Shown here piece by piece: positions 22 through 43,360 of a stretch of DNA of 62,122 nt (its first letter is position 1; each line of letters opens with the position of its first letter). The stretch is from positions 1 to 62,122 of the forward strand of contig JAFPUH010000009.1 of assembly GCA_017395505.1 (NCBI GenBank), written 5' to 3'. Source of the DNA: Kiritimatiellia bacterium (GTDB lineage: Bacteria > Verrucomicrobiota > Kiritimatiellia > RFP12 > UBA1067). Made by a program: the position numbers and the translations under genes. The notes beneath the pieces are model-generated. The model was not told where the DNA came from. It saw only the letters and a program-made list of their open reading frames with translations, and did not search any database.

Positions 22-142
22 TACTCGGGTGGAGACACCTATAGCACCCCAGTGCAACGGGTGTCCATACCCGAGTGGCGGAGGCTTATACACCCGAGTG
101 CCAGAGGTATTACCACCCCAGTGCCAGCGGTGCGGCAAAGCC
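22..142. repeat. 23-bp periodic array, about five units
   Basis: A ten-base core close to CACCCSAGTG recurs at exact 23-base steps, starting at 22 (TACTCGGGTG, diverged), 45, 68, 91 and 114. In three copies the core is an inverted repeat, CAC-CCSA-GTG. The bases between cores are partly shared (gAGg, taTa). The array sits just upstream of a small plus-strand gene. Phased short palindromes suggest a tandem protein-binding array, either operator or iteron-like. That role is inference, and the left edge may be cut by the window. Confidence 0.75.
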
Positions 143-7683: not shown

Positions 7684-10600
7684 TATTTCGCGGCTCAGGT
7701 GGGGGCGCAAGGGTTGTCTTGTCCTCAGGCGAGAACGTAGTATCGTTCTGATGAACGATCTTCGCCAGCTCAGAAAGGAAATCTATCGTACAAGCCACCC
7801 GGTTGAGCTGGCCAAGGTCGACCGACACTATCTGACCGTCGTCATAGACTATGGCGAGCTTGACGGGAAGACGACCGGGGTTCTTCTGTATCGCAGACTT
7901 GAGGCGGGCAACCTTCTCGAGAAGGTCTGCATCGGAGTAGCACAGCTTCAGGGCAAGACCCCTCGAAACGACAGGCATCGCATCCTCCAGCGGATACGCC
8001 TCCTTGACCTGGAACGTCAAGTCGCCTGGCTTGGGATGCTCCTTGAACACATCCTCCTTGTCGTAGACGGTGCGGTGCGAGACCTCTCCGCAGACCATCA
8101 CAAGCCGATCCACCTTCGACTCTATCGCCGAACACGATTCCCACACCTTGGCATAGGTCATGCCTTCGGCTTGACCTGAACCGTCGTCGAGCGAAAGAAT
8201 CGCCCAGCGCTGTCCGATGCTGCCGTCAGGACGAGGCTTCGGAGCTTTTACGGAACATGCGTCAAGAATCGCGACCACACGCACGTCAAGGCTCTTCAGA
8301 AGAAGAGGGTCCAGCTCCTTCTTGTCGAAACGCTTCTTCAGCTTGGCGCGCTCTGCGCTGACAGCCTTGTCGAAGGCGAACTTGTCGCTCCACGACACCT
8401 CGCCCTTGGCCTTTACTATGCTCCTTGCCAAGCCCTTCAACTGCCAGTCGCCGCTCTTGCATCTGGCCAGCAGCTCATCTATCGACGAGCCGTCCGCAGG
8501 ATTCTCGTCCTGCTCCGCGTCAGGCACATCGGGAATCGGCTCTTCGACATCGTCGCCCTCTTGTTCGGCATTGTCGTCGACAGGCTTCTTGGCGATCTTG
8601 GCGAGAGAAAACGGCATGAAGACAAACTGATCCTCCCTGGTGCCTTCAGGCCGAATGCGCAGACAGGCCTGAGACACTTCGGATATCAAGCGGCGGCATG
8701 ACTGAAGGGGATGTCCTGAGATATAGACGCCAAGAAGGTCGCGCTCGTTCTTGAGGTCTTCGGCGGGAGTGAACGGCGGACAGTCCCTGAGCTCCGCATC
8801 GGTCGCCTTCTCTTCACCTCCGGTCATCAGATCGAAGAAGTTGGCCTGTGCGCTCTGCTGCTCTCTGACGCGCTGTTGCGCCTTCTTCAAAGCGAACTCT
8901 ATGTTGTTGAAGAGCTTGGCGCGGTTGGGCTCGAGCGTCGAGAATGCGCCTGTTCTCGTAAGGTTCTCCAGCACACGCTTGTTGACCGCATTCGAACCGG
9001 CAAGCCGCATGCAGAAGTCCATGAAGCACGAATACGGACCATTGGCCTTGCGCTCTGCCACAATCGCCTCGGCGGCCATCTCGCCGACACCCTTGATCCC
9101 GCCCAGGCCATAGCGTATGCCCTTCGAATCGGGAGTGGGCACGAAGCGCGAACCGGATTCGTTCACATCAGGCAGCTTCAGCTCGAGCCCCATCTCCTGC
9201 GCTTCGGCCACGAAGCCGGGCAGCTTGTCGAAGTTGCCTATTTCGGACGAAATCTGGGCGCACATGAATTCGGCGGGATAGTGCGCCTTCATGTATCCCG
9301 TCTGGTAGGCGACCCATGCGTAGCATACGGCGTGGGACTTGTTGAACGCGTAGGATGCGAACGCCTCCCAGTCGGTCCATATCTTCTCGATAAGCTTGGC
9401 CGCTTCAGCCTCGTCCTGCCATTTGTCGATGCGGAACTCGGGGTTCTCCATGCAGCCCTTGACGAACTTTGCCTTGAGTTCGTTCATTATGTCCATGAGC
9501 TTCTTGCCCATGGCCTTGCGAAGCTTGTCCGACTCGCCGCGAGTGAAGCCGGCGAGAAGCCGCGACAAAAGCATGACCTGTTCCTGATAGACCGTGACGC
9601 CGTAAGTATCCTTCAGATACTTCTCCATCAGCGGATGGTCGTAGGTGACCGGCTCGTGGCCCTGCTTTCGCGCGACAAAGCGCGGTATGTACTCCATCGG
9701 ACCTGGGCGGTAGAGAGCATTCATTGCGACCAGGTCGGTAAGACGCTCGGGCTGAAGCGCCATGAGCCACTTCTTCATTCCGTCAGACTCGAACTGGAAA
9801 AGCCCGGTAGTCTCGCCGCGTCCGAAAAGCTCGTAGGTCAGCTTGTCGTCGTCCGGTATCTTGTCAGGATCGAGGTCGATGCCCCGCTCCTTCAAAAGCG
9901 CTACGCATTCCTTCTCGACAGTAAGCGTCTTGAGCCCGAGGAAGTCCATCTTCAGAAGGCCGACAGGCTCGACGTAATGGCCGTCATACTGAGTCGTAAG
10001 CAGCTTCGGGCCCTTCGAGGCGTCATCCGGACCCTTCTTCTTGCCGCCCTTCTCAGGAGTCGGCATGACAGGCAACGTCTCGATAAGAGGATCCCTCGAT
10101 ATGATGACGCCGCAAGCATGCACGCCAGGCTGTCTGATCGAACCTTCGAGACGGGCGGCGCGCTCAAGCAGCTTGTGGACTGTCGGATCAGTCGACTCGA
10201 ACGCGGCATCCAGATCGGGAGACGCCTTTCGCGCCTTCTTGAAGGTGATCTTCGGCGTGTCCGGCACAAGGCCCGCCAGCTTGTTCGTATCGCCAAGCGG
10301 ATAGTCCATCACGCGGCCGACATCCTTGATGGCGGATTTGGCGGCCATCTGGCCGAAGGTTACGATATGCGCCACATGGTCTGCGCCATACTTTCGCGTA
10401 ACGTAATCCAGCACGCGTTCACGACCGGCGTCGTCGAAGTCGACGTCGATATCAGGCATCGAAATGCGGTCGGGGTTGAGGAAGCGTTCGAACAGCAGGT
10501 CGTATTTGAGGGGATCGACGTTCGTGATGCCCAAGGCGTAGGCGACAGCCGAACCTGCCGCGGAACCGCGCCCGGGGCCGACCCACACGCCAAGCCGCCT

Positions 10601-40749: not shown

Positions 40750-40764
40750 ATAGGATTAGCCTAT
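40750..40764. promoter_or_regulatory. candidate LysR-type operator for metY
   Basis: ATAGGATTAGCCTAT is a perfect 5-5-5 inverted repeat and fits the LysR pattern T-N11-A (T 40751, A 40763). Its centre is about 67 bases before the predicted metY start of transcription, the usual LysR activation position. It overlaps the stop codon of the lysR gene. Confidence 0.5.
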
Positions 40765-41669
40765 CGCTTGGCGGTGCGCTTGCGAATCTCCTCGACGAAC
40801 GCCTTGCCTGCGTCGGAGAGCGGAATGCCGTCGCGCAGGACTAGCCCGACGCGAATAAAATCGTCCATCTTGAGGGGCACCGCCACGACATCGGGTCCGT
40901 TGAGTTCGCGTGATAGCGCGCCCGATGCGATGGTGTAGCCGTCAAGGCCGAGGATGAGGTTAGTCATCGTGGCGCGGTCGCGCACGCGGATGTTCTTCTT
41001 GCGGTCTATCGAGGGCATGACCTCCTCGGCAAAGTAGAGCGCGTTCTCCACGCCCTGCTCGAAGGAGATGAACGGATATGCATCCAGCTCCTTGGGCGAG
41101 ATGACGCTCTTCTTCTTCGCAAGCGGATGGTGCTTGCCGAGGAACACGTGCGGACGCGACACGAACAACTCTTCGAACCGAAGCTCCTCTTTCTTAAGTA
41201 TCTTCATTAGCGCGCGCTCGTTGCGGCGCGAGAGGTAGAGGATTCCGATTTCGCTGCGGTGACGCGCCACGTCGTCGATTATCTCGCTCGTCACAGTCTC
41301 GCGCAAGGTGAAGTCGTAGCTGTCCGCACCGTTGGCCTTTACGACCTCCATGAACGCCTCAACGGCGAACGCGTAATGCTGGCACGAGACGGCGAATTGC
41401 GGACGCCGCACCGCCTTTCCGGTGTACTTCGACTGGATGCGCGCCGCATCATCAAGGATCTGGCGGGCGGAGGCAAGGAACTCTTCGCCCTCGCGGGTGA
41501 CGGACACTCCACGGCTCGAGCGCGTGAAGATGGCGATGCGAAGCTCCTCTTCAAGCGAGCGGATCGCCTCGGTCAAGGTGGGCTGCGTCGCGAACACGCG
41601 GCGGGCAGCCTCGCTCACCGAGCCGCACGACGCCACCGCATCGACATACTTAAGCTGCTGTAGGGTCAC
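40761..41669 (-). CDS. LysR-family transcriptional regulator, probably of sulfur genes
   Basis: 302 residues: N-terminal winged helix-turn-helix (LKYVDAVASCGSVSEAARRVFATQPTL split over residues 6-32), then a periplasmic-binding-like effector domain (QFAVSCQHYAFAVEAF; YPFISFEQGVEN). The neighbours cysK and metY suggest that it responds to a sulfur metabolite such as O-acetylserine, as CysB does; this is inference. GTG start at 41669 has AGGAGG 6 bases upstream, which sets the start. Its own extended -10 lies at 41700-41708 and the 22-bp array is 110 bases further upstream. Confidence 0.88.
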   Translation of the reverse strand: MTLQQLKYVDAVASCGSVSEAARRVFATQPTLTEAIRSLEEELRIAIFTRSSRGVSVTREGEEFLASARQILDDAARIQSKYTGKAVRRPQFAVSCQHYAFAVEAFMEVVKANGADSYDFTLRETVTSEIIDDVARHRSEIGILYLSRRNERALMKILKKEELRFEELFVSRPHVFLGKHHPLAKKKSVISPKELDAYPFISFEQGVENALYFAEEVMPSIDRKKNIRVRDRATMTNLILGLDGYTIASGALSRELNGPDVVAVPLKMDDFIRVGLVLRDGIPLSDAGKAFVEEIRKRTAKR

Positions 41670-41699: not shown

Positions 41700-41708
41700 A
41701 TTATATCA
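41700..41708 (-). promoter_or_regulatory. extended -10 promoter of lysR gene
   Basis: TGATATAAT, TATAAT at 41705-41700. A leader of about 24 bases ends in AGGAGG before the GTG start. Confidence 0.55.
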
Positions 41709-41819
41709 TATTACTCGGCATCCGACCACACTAAACACAGGCAAATTCCATCAGTTCAGTAGCCTTATTTTGGCATGGCCTGCGCGTCTATTGCCAAGCC
41801 CCTGCCCCCTATTGGGAAA

Positions 41820-41965
41820 TCTACCGCGGTAGACTGGAAAGTCTACCGCGCCTAACTGGAAAGTCTACCGCGCCAGACTGACGAATCTACCGCGGTAGAC
41901 TTCATAATCTACCGCGCTAGACTTCCCAGTCTACCGCGCTTAATTTCCCAGTCTACCGTGGTAGA
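41820..41965. repeat. seven-unit 22-bp array with palindromic cores
   Basis: A 14-base core close to TCTACCGCGGTAGA recurs at exactly 22-base steps, starting at 41820, 41842, 41864, 41886, 41908, 41930 and 41952. The left half TCTACCGCG is identical in six copies (TCTACCGTG in the seventh). Copies 1 and 4 are perfect palindromes, copy 7 nearly so, copy 5 differs by one base; copies 2, 3 and 6 have a decayed right half. The 8-base spacers read CTGGAAAG on the left side and CTTCCCAG or TTTCCCAG on the right, nearly reverse complements, so the array has overall dyad symmetry. A decayed eighth unit may precede it. The rest of 41709-42040 holds no gene. Confidence 0.92.
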
Positions 41966-42040
41966 CTTACCAAGTCGTGCTGAGATGATTGTCAAAACGC
42001 CAGGTACGACGTCCTACCGCATGCGGTACAAGTAGTCCGT

Positions 42041-43360
42041 TCAGCGTCCGCGCAGCTTCAGCATGGAAAGCAGAACGGCAAGCGCGAGAAGCGGCTGGTA
42101 GTAGAGGCTCTTTGCGAGCGAAAGCGAATCGACCTGGATGTCGAGCCCCTTGGCGACGCCCATCGCAATCAGGATCTGCGCACCATACGGCAAAAGCCCC
42201 TGCACGACGCAGGAAGCCGTGTCTAGCACGGACGCGACGCGCACCGGGTCGACCTTGAACTTCTCGGAGCAGGCCTTGGCGATCGGCCCCGCGATGACGA
42301 TTGCGACCGTGTTGTTGGCGGTGAAGCAGTTCACGGCGGATACGAGAAGGAATACGCCGAGTTCGCAGGAGCGAGGCCCCCTTATCACCTTCGCGATGCG
42401 GTCCGTGAGCCATGCGATGCCGCCGTTCTCGCGCACCGACCTGAAAAGTCCACCCGCGAGCAGGGCCACTATGAGGGTTTCGCCCATTCCGAGCGCGCCC
42501 TTGCCCAGAAGGTCCATCGCATCGAAGAACGCGAACCTTCCGAGCGCGCCGCCGATGGCTGCGGAGAGGAGCGTTCCGAAGAAGAGGAGCGCCATCACGT
42601 TGAAGCCGGCCAGCGCGAGCGCCAGGACGAACACATAGGGAGCGACGAGTATGAAATGCTCTCCAGACACTGGAGCGGCCTCGACGACGCCTGCGGCGGA
42701 AGAGCCGGACATCGCGTAGAGGAAGAGCGCGACGAGCGCGGCGGGCGAGGCGATGAAGCCGTTGGCAAGAAACTTGTCCTTCATCCTCACGCCCTGCGTA
42801 CGGGTTGCGGCGATCGTCGTGTCGGAGATCATCGACATGTTGTCGCCGAACATCGCCCCGCCTATCGTCGCGCCCATCAGGAGCGCATGGCTGAGGTGAA
42901 GCGGTTCCGCGAAGCCAAGCGCAATCGGAGCAACGGCGGCGATCGTTCCGCAGGACGTCCCTATCGCGAGCGAAATGAGGCACGAGACGAGAAACACCCC
43001 GGCCACCATGAACTGCGCCGGCACGAAGCGCTCCGCGATTGCGACCGCCGCATCGACGGCACCGGCCCCCTTCGCGATCGTGGCGAACGCGCCCGCGAGT
43101 ATGAAGACGAGGCACATGACCATGATGTTCGTGTCGCCCATGCCGCGCGCGTACGTCTCGACCTTCTCGTCGAGGGAGCGGCGGCCGAAGAGAAGCGACG
43201 CCGCGGACGCCACGATGAACGCGACGGGCATCGACACCTTGTACCACGGCATCTCGAACCCGAGGTGCGCGGCGAAAAGCGAAAGCCCCACATAGAACGC
43301 CGCGAACACGGCGAACGGAACCAGCGCGGTGCCGCTAGGCTTGATTGGGTCGCCGCTCAT
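42041..43360 (-). CDS. nhaC: Na+/H+ antiporter, NhaC family
   Basis: A 439-residue membrane protein with about 11-12 hydrophobic segments. The NhaC/IT-superfamily repeats are visible: SLAIGTSCGTIAAVAPIALG, GGAMFGDNMSMISDTTIAA and NCFTANNTVAIVIAGPIAK. Proteins of this family exchange sodium for protons or carry malate/lactate with them. ATG at 43360 overlaps the capD-like stop (ATGA), so it is the last gene of the cdsA-uppS group. Exact substrate unknown. Confidence 0.86.
   Translation of the reverse strand: MSGDPIKPSGTALVPFAVFAAFYVGLSLFAAHLGFEMPWYKVSMPVAFIVASAASLLFGRRSLDEKVETYARGMGDTNIMVMCLVFILAGAFATIAKGAGAVDAAVAIAERFVPAQFMVAGVFLVSCLISLAIGTSCGTIAAVAPIALGFAEPLHLSHALLMGATIGGAMFGDNMSMISDTTIAATRTQGVRMKDKFLANGFIASPAALVALFLYAMSGSSAAGVVEAAPVSGEHFILVAPYVFVLALALAGFNVMALLFFGTLLSAAIGGALGRFAFFDAMDLLGKGALGMGETLIVALLAGGLFRSVRENGGIAWLTDRIAKVIRGPRSCELGVFLLVSAVNCFTANNTVAIVIAGPIAKACSEKFKVDPVRVASVLDTASCVVQGLLPYGAQILIAMGVAKGLDIQVDSLSLAKSLYYQPLLALAVLLSMLKLRGR

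Follow-up and report, generated by a model that had tools for sequence, protein, structure and literature searches.

In the parC/ParR and tubC/TubR plasmid centromeres, tandem repeats with their sites on one face of the helix lie directly upstream of the gene for the protein that binds them, and autoregulation is achieved through cooperative assembly. The BOX elements of S. pneumoniae are dispersed and intergenic, with symmetrical ends and variable internal modules. The usual view of HU proteins is that they bend DNA with low specificity. The phage protein TF1 of SPO1 (PDB 1exe) is a member of the HU superfamily with a sequence preference, and we know of no tandem operator array for it of the form described below. 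Proteins that combine an HU domain with an Ig-like domain belong to the uncharacterised family PF14848/PF14734 and include BVU_2165 of B. vulgatus (PDB 4fmr) and TDE_2259 of T. denticola, whose locus tag neighbors that of the BspA gene TDE_2258 (PMC12724145); no description of operator arrays for these proteins was found in the literature searched.

The window, a stretch of 62,122 nucleotides that forms contig C55 of a 1.8-Mb MAG (G000) of a Kiritimatiellia bacterium, contains a tandem array (array A) flanked on both sides by core metabolic genes. The evidence set out below suggests that array A is probably a cooperative operator array for a sequence-specific DNA-binding protein of HU-like type, in which an HU fold is followed by an Ig-like domain.

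Architecture of array A and its surroundings

Array A consists of seven units starting at 41820, 41842, 41864, 41886, 41908, 41930 and 41952, a period of exactly 22 bp, so that the constant spacing claimed in the original prediction was reproduced with zero deviation. That prediction placed the half-site TCTACCGCG in all seven units; it is perfect in units 1–6, while unit 7 (TCTACCGTG) carries one change. The predicted retention of a palindrome in every third unit was borne out, with the full palindrome TCTACCGCGGTAGA in units 1 and 4 and a nearly full version (TCTACCGTGGTAGA) in unit 7; unit 5 (TCTACCGCGCTAGA) is likewise one base away from it. Only units 1, 4 and 7 have an intact right half-site; in the others it is degenerate, its initial G being changed to C. 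The spacers switch from CTGGAAAG to CTTCCCAG at the center, and the proposed symmetry about unit 4 is seen in an overall dyad with arms of 83 nt that are 73% complementary. Over 66 bp the best lag identity was 0.80, whereas none of 500 dinucleotide shuffles exceeded 0.53. The location first given for the array was right, but the element is longer than 146 bp, extending at either end into terminal sequences of some 20 bp (which read GCACC...GGTGC in several copies). The window copy aligns with a copy on contig C18 over 221 bp at 90%. As judged by eye, the copy at C34:32311 has a perfect or almost perfect terminal inverted repeat, while those of the others are imperfect. The array was assigned to the minus strand because the gene downstream of it, in the sense defined by the HU locus described below, is the minus-strand lysR (Table 1).

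The dyad symmetry has a consequence at the level of single strands, in that the minus strand folds at -107.5 kcal/mol, with a z of -11.8 against shuffles that is inflated because the shuffles do not keep the repeats. Such a fold would be expected of a structured RNA or a single-strand DNA hairpin, for example an attenuator or an attC-like site. This explanation is nevertheless highly improbable, as the fold comes from a dyad peculiar to the array A family while many of the arrays found before HU-like genes keep a single orientation throughout, and the window gave 0 Rfam matches. By eye, the RYYYAAC/GTTRRRY core sites of integron attC are absent from the aligned ends of array A.

Regulation of lysR, as raised in the original prediction, found nothing but position to recommend it: some 110 bp separate the array from the putative -10 box of lysR downstream of it, and the lysR/nhaC pair was not found adjacent in the relatives examined. 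Action on lysR is the weakest step of the proposal made here. No good sigma-70 promoter was found overlapping array A in the window; the sequence of the putative box, TATGATATAAT, also precedes several HU-like genes. The missing adjacency had suggested that array A marks a synteny breakpoint, a candidate that was set aside because the genus keeps little of its gene order and breakpoint evidence therefore carries little weight. A second, weaker array in the window, separate from array A and of the same class by period, stands before an ORF of 73 aa (190-411).

Table 1. Coordinates of features in the window and of the second dispersed array family
Feature	Position	Strand	Basis
Weaker 23-bp array, unit CACCCGAGTGCCAGAGGTATTA	43..134	.	
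lysR-type regulator gene, transcribed away from array A	40761..41669	-	gene call
Putative -10 box of lysR, TATGATATAAT, downstream of array A	41700..41710	-	sequence
Left terminal segment, resembling other copies (TGCACCTATTGGGAA in the C18 copy)	41799..41819	.	copy alignment
Array A, seven 22-bp units, half-site TCTACCGCG	41820..41965	-	unit reading
Right terminal segment, matching the left one in inverted orientation	41966..41983	.	copy alignment
Right flank in common with the C18 copy	41984..42030	.	221-bp alignment, 90%
nhaC-like antiporter gene, 3' end towards array A	42041..43360	-	gene call
AAGTCCTAGGACTT arrays (L187, L191, L207, L214)	G000 C34:77130, C18:128, C54:7504, C19:27519		

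Dispersed copies of array A

Rather than occurring once and varying freely in unit number, the outcome named in the original prediction as speaking against it, array A is present eight times in G000, on contigs C8, C18, C19, C33, C34 (two), C46 and C55, and three times in G022 (RUG712), the only congener among the 61 searched in all that contains it. The 11 copies have 6–8 units, mostly seven, and spacing is strict in all of them. Over 77 units, the nine positions of the half-site are 95–100% conserved, and the divergence per position between seven-unit copies is 0.033 in the half-site, 0.253 in the right half and 0.175 in the spacer, which makes the half-site five- to eightfold better conserved than the remaining positions of the unit. 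Copies differ by gains and losses of entire units, as a neutral minisatellite might produce, but the eight sites, the lack of drift in spacing and the conservation of the half-site render such an origin scarcely credible; chance or a lone minisatellite was ruled out by the dinucleotide shuffles together with the eight copies. An iteron or plasmid reading, also put forward at the outset, drew no support from a window array set among core metabolic genes and from eight copies in the genome. Further exact matches in collections of genome contigs and viral contigs look like chance or unrelated repeats and were discarded.

Several copies retain traces of their history. Pairs of copies have flanks in common, and the copy at C34:140211 is preceded by a fragment (102 bp at 99%) of the HU-like gene found on C46, joined at a TGCACC repeat. 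This fragment ties the C34 copy to the HU locus by segmental duplication, which, given that the intact gene resides at the HU locus, most simply started from that locus. The 5' end of glnA accompanies the copy on C33 (L008), and the carB 3' end lies beyond a variable segment, indicating that this copy came from a glnA locus; with its array between carB and glnA fragments, this region is apparently a duplicated or imported intergenic island. A second dispersed family, built on the palindrome AAGTCCTAGGACTT with a period of 23 bp, has four copies with shared flanks (Table 1), no HU-like gene was found beside any of the four, and several single arrays occur besides.

These observations bring to mind a dispersed non-autonomous repeat (MITE-, REP- or BOX-like) that spread by transposition or duplication and is mostly devoid of a regulatory role. 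Eight copies of 6–8 units with terminal inverted segments (best in C34:32311), the flanks common to pairs of copies and the existence of the second family all agree with such an element. It is unlikely as an explanation, however, since the half-site is constrained, the neighbors of the copies differ, no target-site duplication was seen in the copies read, and no transposase was noticed beside the 11 copies. Moreover, arrays of unrelated sequence before HU-like genes have the 21–23-bp period and a palindromic core as well, a recurrence for which one MITE family does not account. No empty sites were seen for array A among relatives, in which gene order is too diverged to reveal them.

The glnA copy of array A occupies an orthologous site in G000 and G022. 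Identity between the two genomes at this locus is 91% in the coding region, 90% in the 5' flank, 85% in the array and 52%, hence unalignable, beyond it, so that homology ends at the right edge of the array. Several copies also have a lower G+C to their right. This pattern would be given by a site that a tyrosine recombinase uses for recombination or as an island boundary, and to the right of which variable DNA is inserted, and a gene for a probable tyrosine recombinase (L046:5661-6608) ends about 100 bp from the array on contig C92 of G022. Such a gene is present at only 1 of the 11 copies, though, synteny is weak across the genus in any case, and neither a repeated far boundary nor direct repeats were noticed, making a recombinase site very unlikely. 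On contig C17 of G000, the gene for a homologue that is 45% identical to the L046 recombinase and weakly matches Phage_integrase is separated from an HU-like gene by about 4 kb. More broadly, 22–23-bp arrays with three different cores precede glnA in 4 of 29 genes tested (L102, L115, L005 and L044, in four genomes; p 0.018), an association that is a lead only.

Two further regularities were considered and dropped. Array A lies between co-directional genes, with its left end facing a gene start, in 8/8 cases in G000, some with weak gene calls, and in 1/3 in G022; a portable promoter on the right flank is near-consensus solely in the C46 and C34:140211 copies.

Pairing of 21–23-bp arrays with HU-like genes

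The C46 copy of array A ends 30 bp upstream of a gene (G000:C46:4981-5745) for an HU-like protein of 254 aa. This protein has a weak match to PF14848 (HU-DNA_bdg), and its predicted structure (pLDDT 85) has a secondary-structure order corresponding to an HU domain followed by a beta (Ig-like) domain, the same domain order as in BVU_2165 and TDE_2259. Its best PDB match is 4fmr (E 4e-12); a profile of the HU-like family matches 4fmr strongly, and HU (5eka) and SPO1 TF1 weakly. The other seven A arrays in the genome, including the window copy, have no intact HU-like gene beside them. No homologue of the C46 protein was detected in G022, which has three A arrays in a MAG that is about 82% complete, and the C46 gene was accordingly rejected as the partner of array A in both genomes. 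An origin in phages or plasmids was likewise rejected, as the related HU-like protein L126 had no tblastn match in phages or plasmids and none was found in viral contigs.

Homologues of the C46 gene in G000 and its congeners mostly have upstream arrays of their own, with other cores. PF14848 was searched over the genus independently of the arrays, with 40 matches in 20 of the 61 genomes, all of those in the pairing test being draft MAGs; the seeds of the HU profile were array-bearing members, though the majority of loci in the test derive from the independent search. A 21–23-bp array was found upstream of 27 of the 38 HU-like genes that are first in their operon and have upstream DNA, against 15 of 625 non-HU genes (Fisher p 1.1e-28). 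The remaining 11/38 had no array by the same test, nor did any of seven HU-like genes second in an operon (0/7), and HU-like genes outside the genus but in the same phylum mostly have none. Array A, with its 22-bp same-face period, its mostly palindromic core and one copy upstream of an HU-like gene, has the features of this class. Because arrays of the class sit before HU-like genes, the window copy is most likely a docking site for an HU-like protein, for which the product of the C46 gene is the most likely candidate.

The arrays upstream of HU-like genes are regular in form and diverse in sequence. Twelve have 4 units and ten have 7, and spacing in the 27 arrays shows two one-base departures in all. 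The cores are gene-specific and mostly palindromic, for example GTC(A/T)GAC, GGTGTCACC, TCGTACGA, TTGTCAACTGACAA and GCCTAAGGCG. Some are shared: AGTACT is common to close homologues in G022, G006 and G053, GACGTC occurs in two G001 genes, GTC(A/T)GAC in G050 and G053, and ACCCTGAGGGT in two G000 genes. Array similarity tracks protein similarity (Mantel r 0.22, reached by 2 of 2000 permutations), and the 10 pairs with a protein identity of at least 0.4 have an array score of 8.8 vs 4.6 (sd 1.1), a covariation that is partly joint inheritance of the gene and its upstream DNA.

Among neighboring genes, BspA-like genes adjoin some HU-like genes. Genes for CesT-family chaperones lie downstream of arrays in L218 (about 8760-8920; about 28.8 kb on contig C46 of G000) and L116 (2036-2551), and in L116 the chaperone gene immediately follows an HU-like gene of the same strand. 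In the portion of G000 surveyed (739,055 bases, 41% of the genome), 17 of the 18 repeated arrays judged by eye to be intergenic have a period of 22 or 23 bp; rows with repeats of 15, 21, 24 and 30 bp look like coding repeats. Elsewhere, Sporosarcina (L018) has a long array with a period of about 21 bp and the unit GGTCTACCGCGGGATATGGTC. A three-unit 22-bp array with a core resembling TCTACCGCG in a Bacteroides MAG (L014:2913-2982) was considered and dropped, there being no PF14848 gene in that genome.

A proposed operator array and its relation to known systems

Binding of one protein cooperatively to same-face sites, as originally predicted, gains indirect support from three observations: all 11 copies are strictly spaced, the half-site is strongly constrained, and arrays of this type are associated with HU-like genes. 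In the proposed mechanism, HU-like dimers would bind successive sites two helical turns apart; at that distance all sites lie on one face, and the dimers would touch. HU-superfamily dimers bend DNA, and so 4 or 7 in-phase sites could give a compact, bent nucleoprotein complex, which may repress, or tune, the promoter of the HU-like protein itself. Same-face sites, a preferred number of them and a position before a gene for a DNA-binding protein are features to be expected if an operator is cooperative and autoregulatory. On this view, seven dispersed ('orphan') copies would draw the HU-like protein to positions upstream of other genes, and the window array, upstream of lysR, would be one of these secondary targets. 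Extended to the whole family, the proposal is more tentative: a family of HU-superfamily proteins in rumen Kiritimatiellota may have become sequence-specific, self-addressed regulators or DNA organizers, each with its own same-face array of 4 or 7 palindromes, with fast change of specificity between paralogues and with some arrays, such as array A with its eight copies, spread as a private regulon or as DNA-folding sites.

It could instead be that array A is a centromere-, iteron- or nucleoid-organizing site, at which the HU-like protein positions or folds DNA and autoregulation is secondary, as in parC/ParR. The location of an array upstream of the gene for its presumed binder, the 4 or 7 same-face sites, the several chromosomal copies and the membership of the binder in a superfamily of nucleoid proteins are all compatible with this role. 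It appears quite unlikely, however, as no ParM/TubZ/ParA-type gene was seen by eye beside the HU-like loci examined, and several of the HU-gene arrays occur once in the surveyed part of the genome.

If the operator array proposal is true, the genus offers many natural protein/operator pairs of diverged specificity from which to learn how the HU fold reads sequence, could show why 4 or 7 sites are favored, and would provide a function for PF14848/PF14734. HU-superfamily proteins with such operator arrays were not found in the open-access literature, subscription journals lying mostly outside the search.

Compared with the systems described at the outset, array A most resembles parC and tubC in its tandem same-face repeats directly upstream of the presumed binder's gene and, if the proposal holds, in autoregulation by cooperative assembly. 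Unlike them, its presumed binder belongs to the HU superfamily rather than having a ribbon-helix-helix or winged HTH fold, no gene for a filament-forming NTPase was seen adjoining, and the copies are chromosomal and dispersed, with locus-specific cores across the class. Both the superfamily of the presumed binder and the failure to see a partner NTPase spoke against classing array A as a parC-type centromere. Array A shares dispersal, intergenic location, symmetrical ends and internal modules of variable number with BOX, but its 22-bp units are in strict helical phase and the same architecture recurs in unrelated sequences before HU-like genes. TF1, as a phage protein, differs from the C46 protein. 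The cooperative operator array would be of a known kind, and its pairing with an HU-like protein would be the new part.
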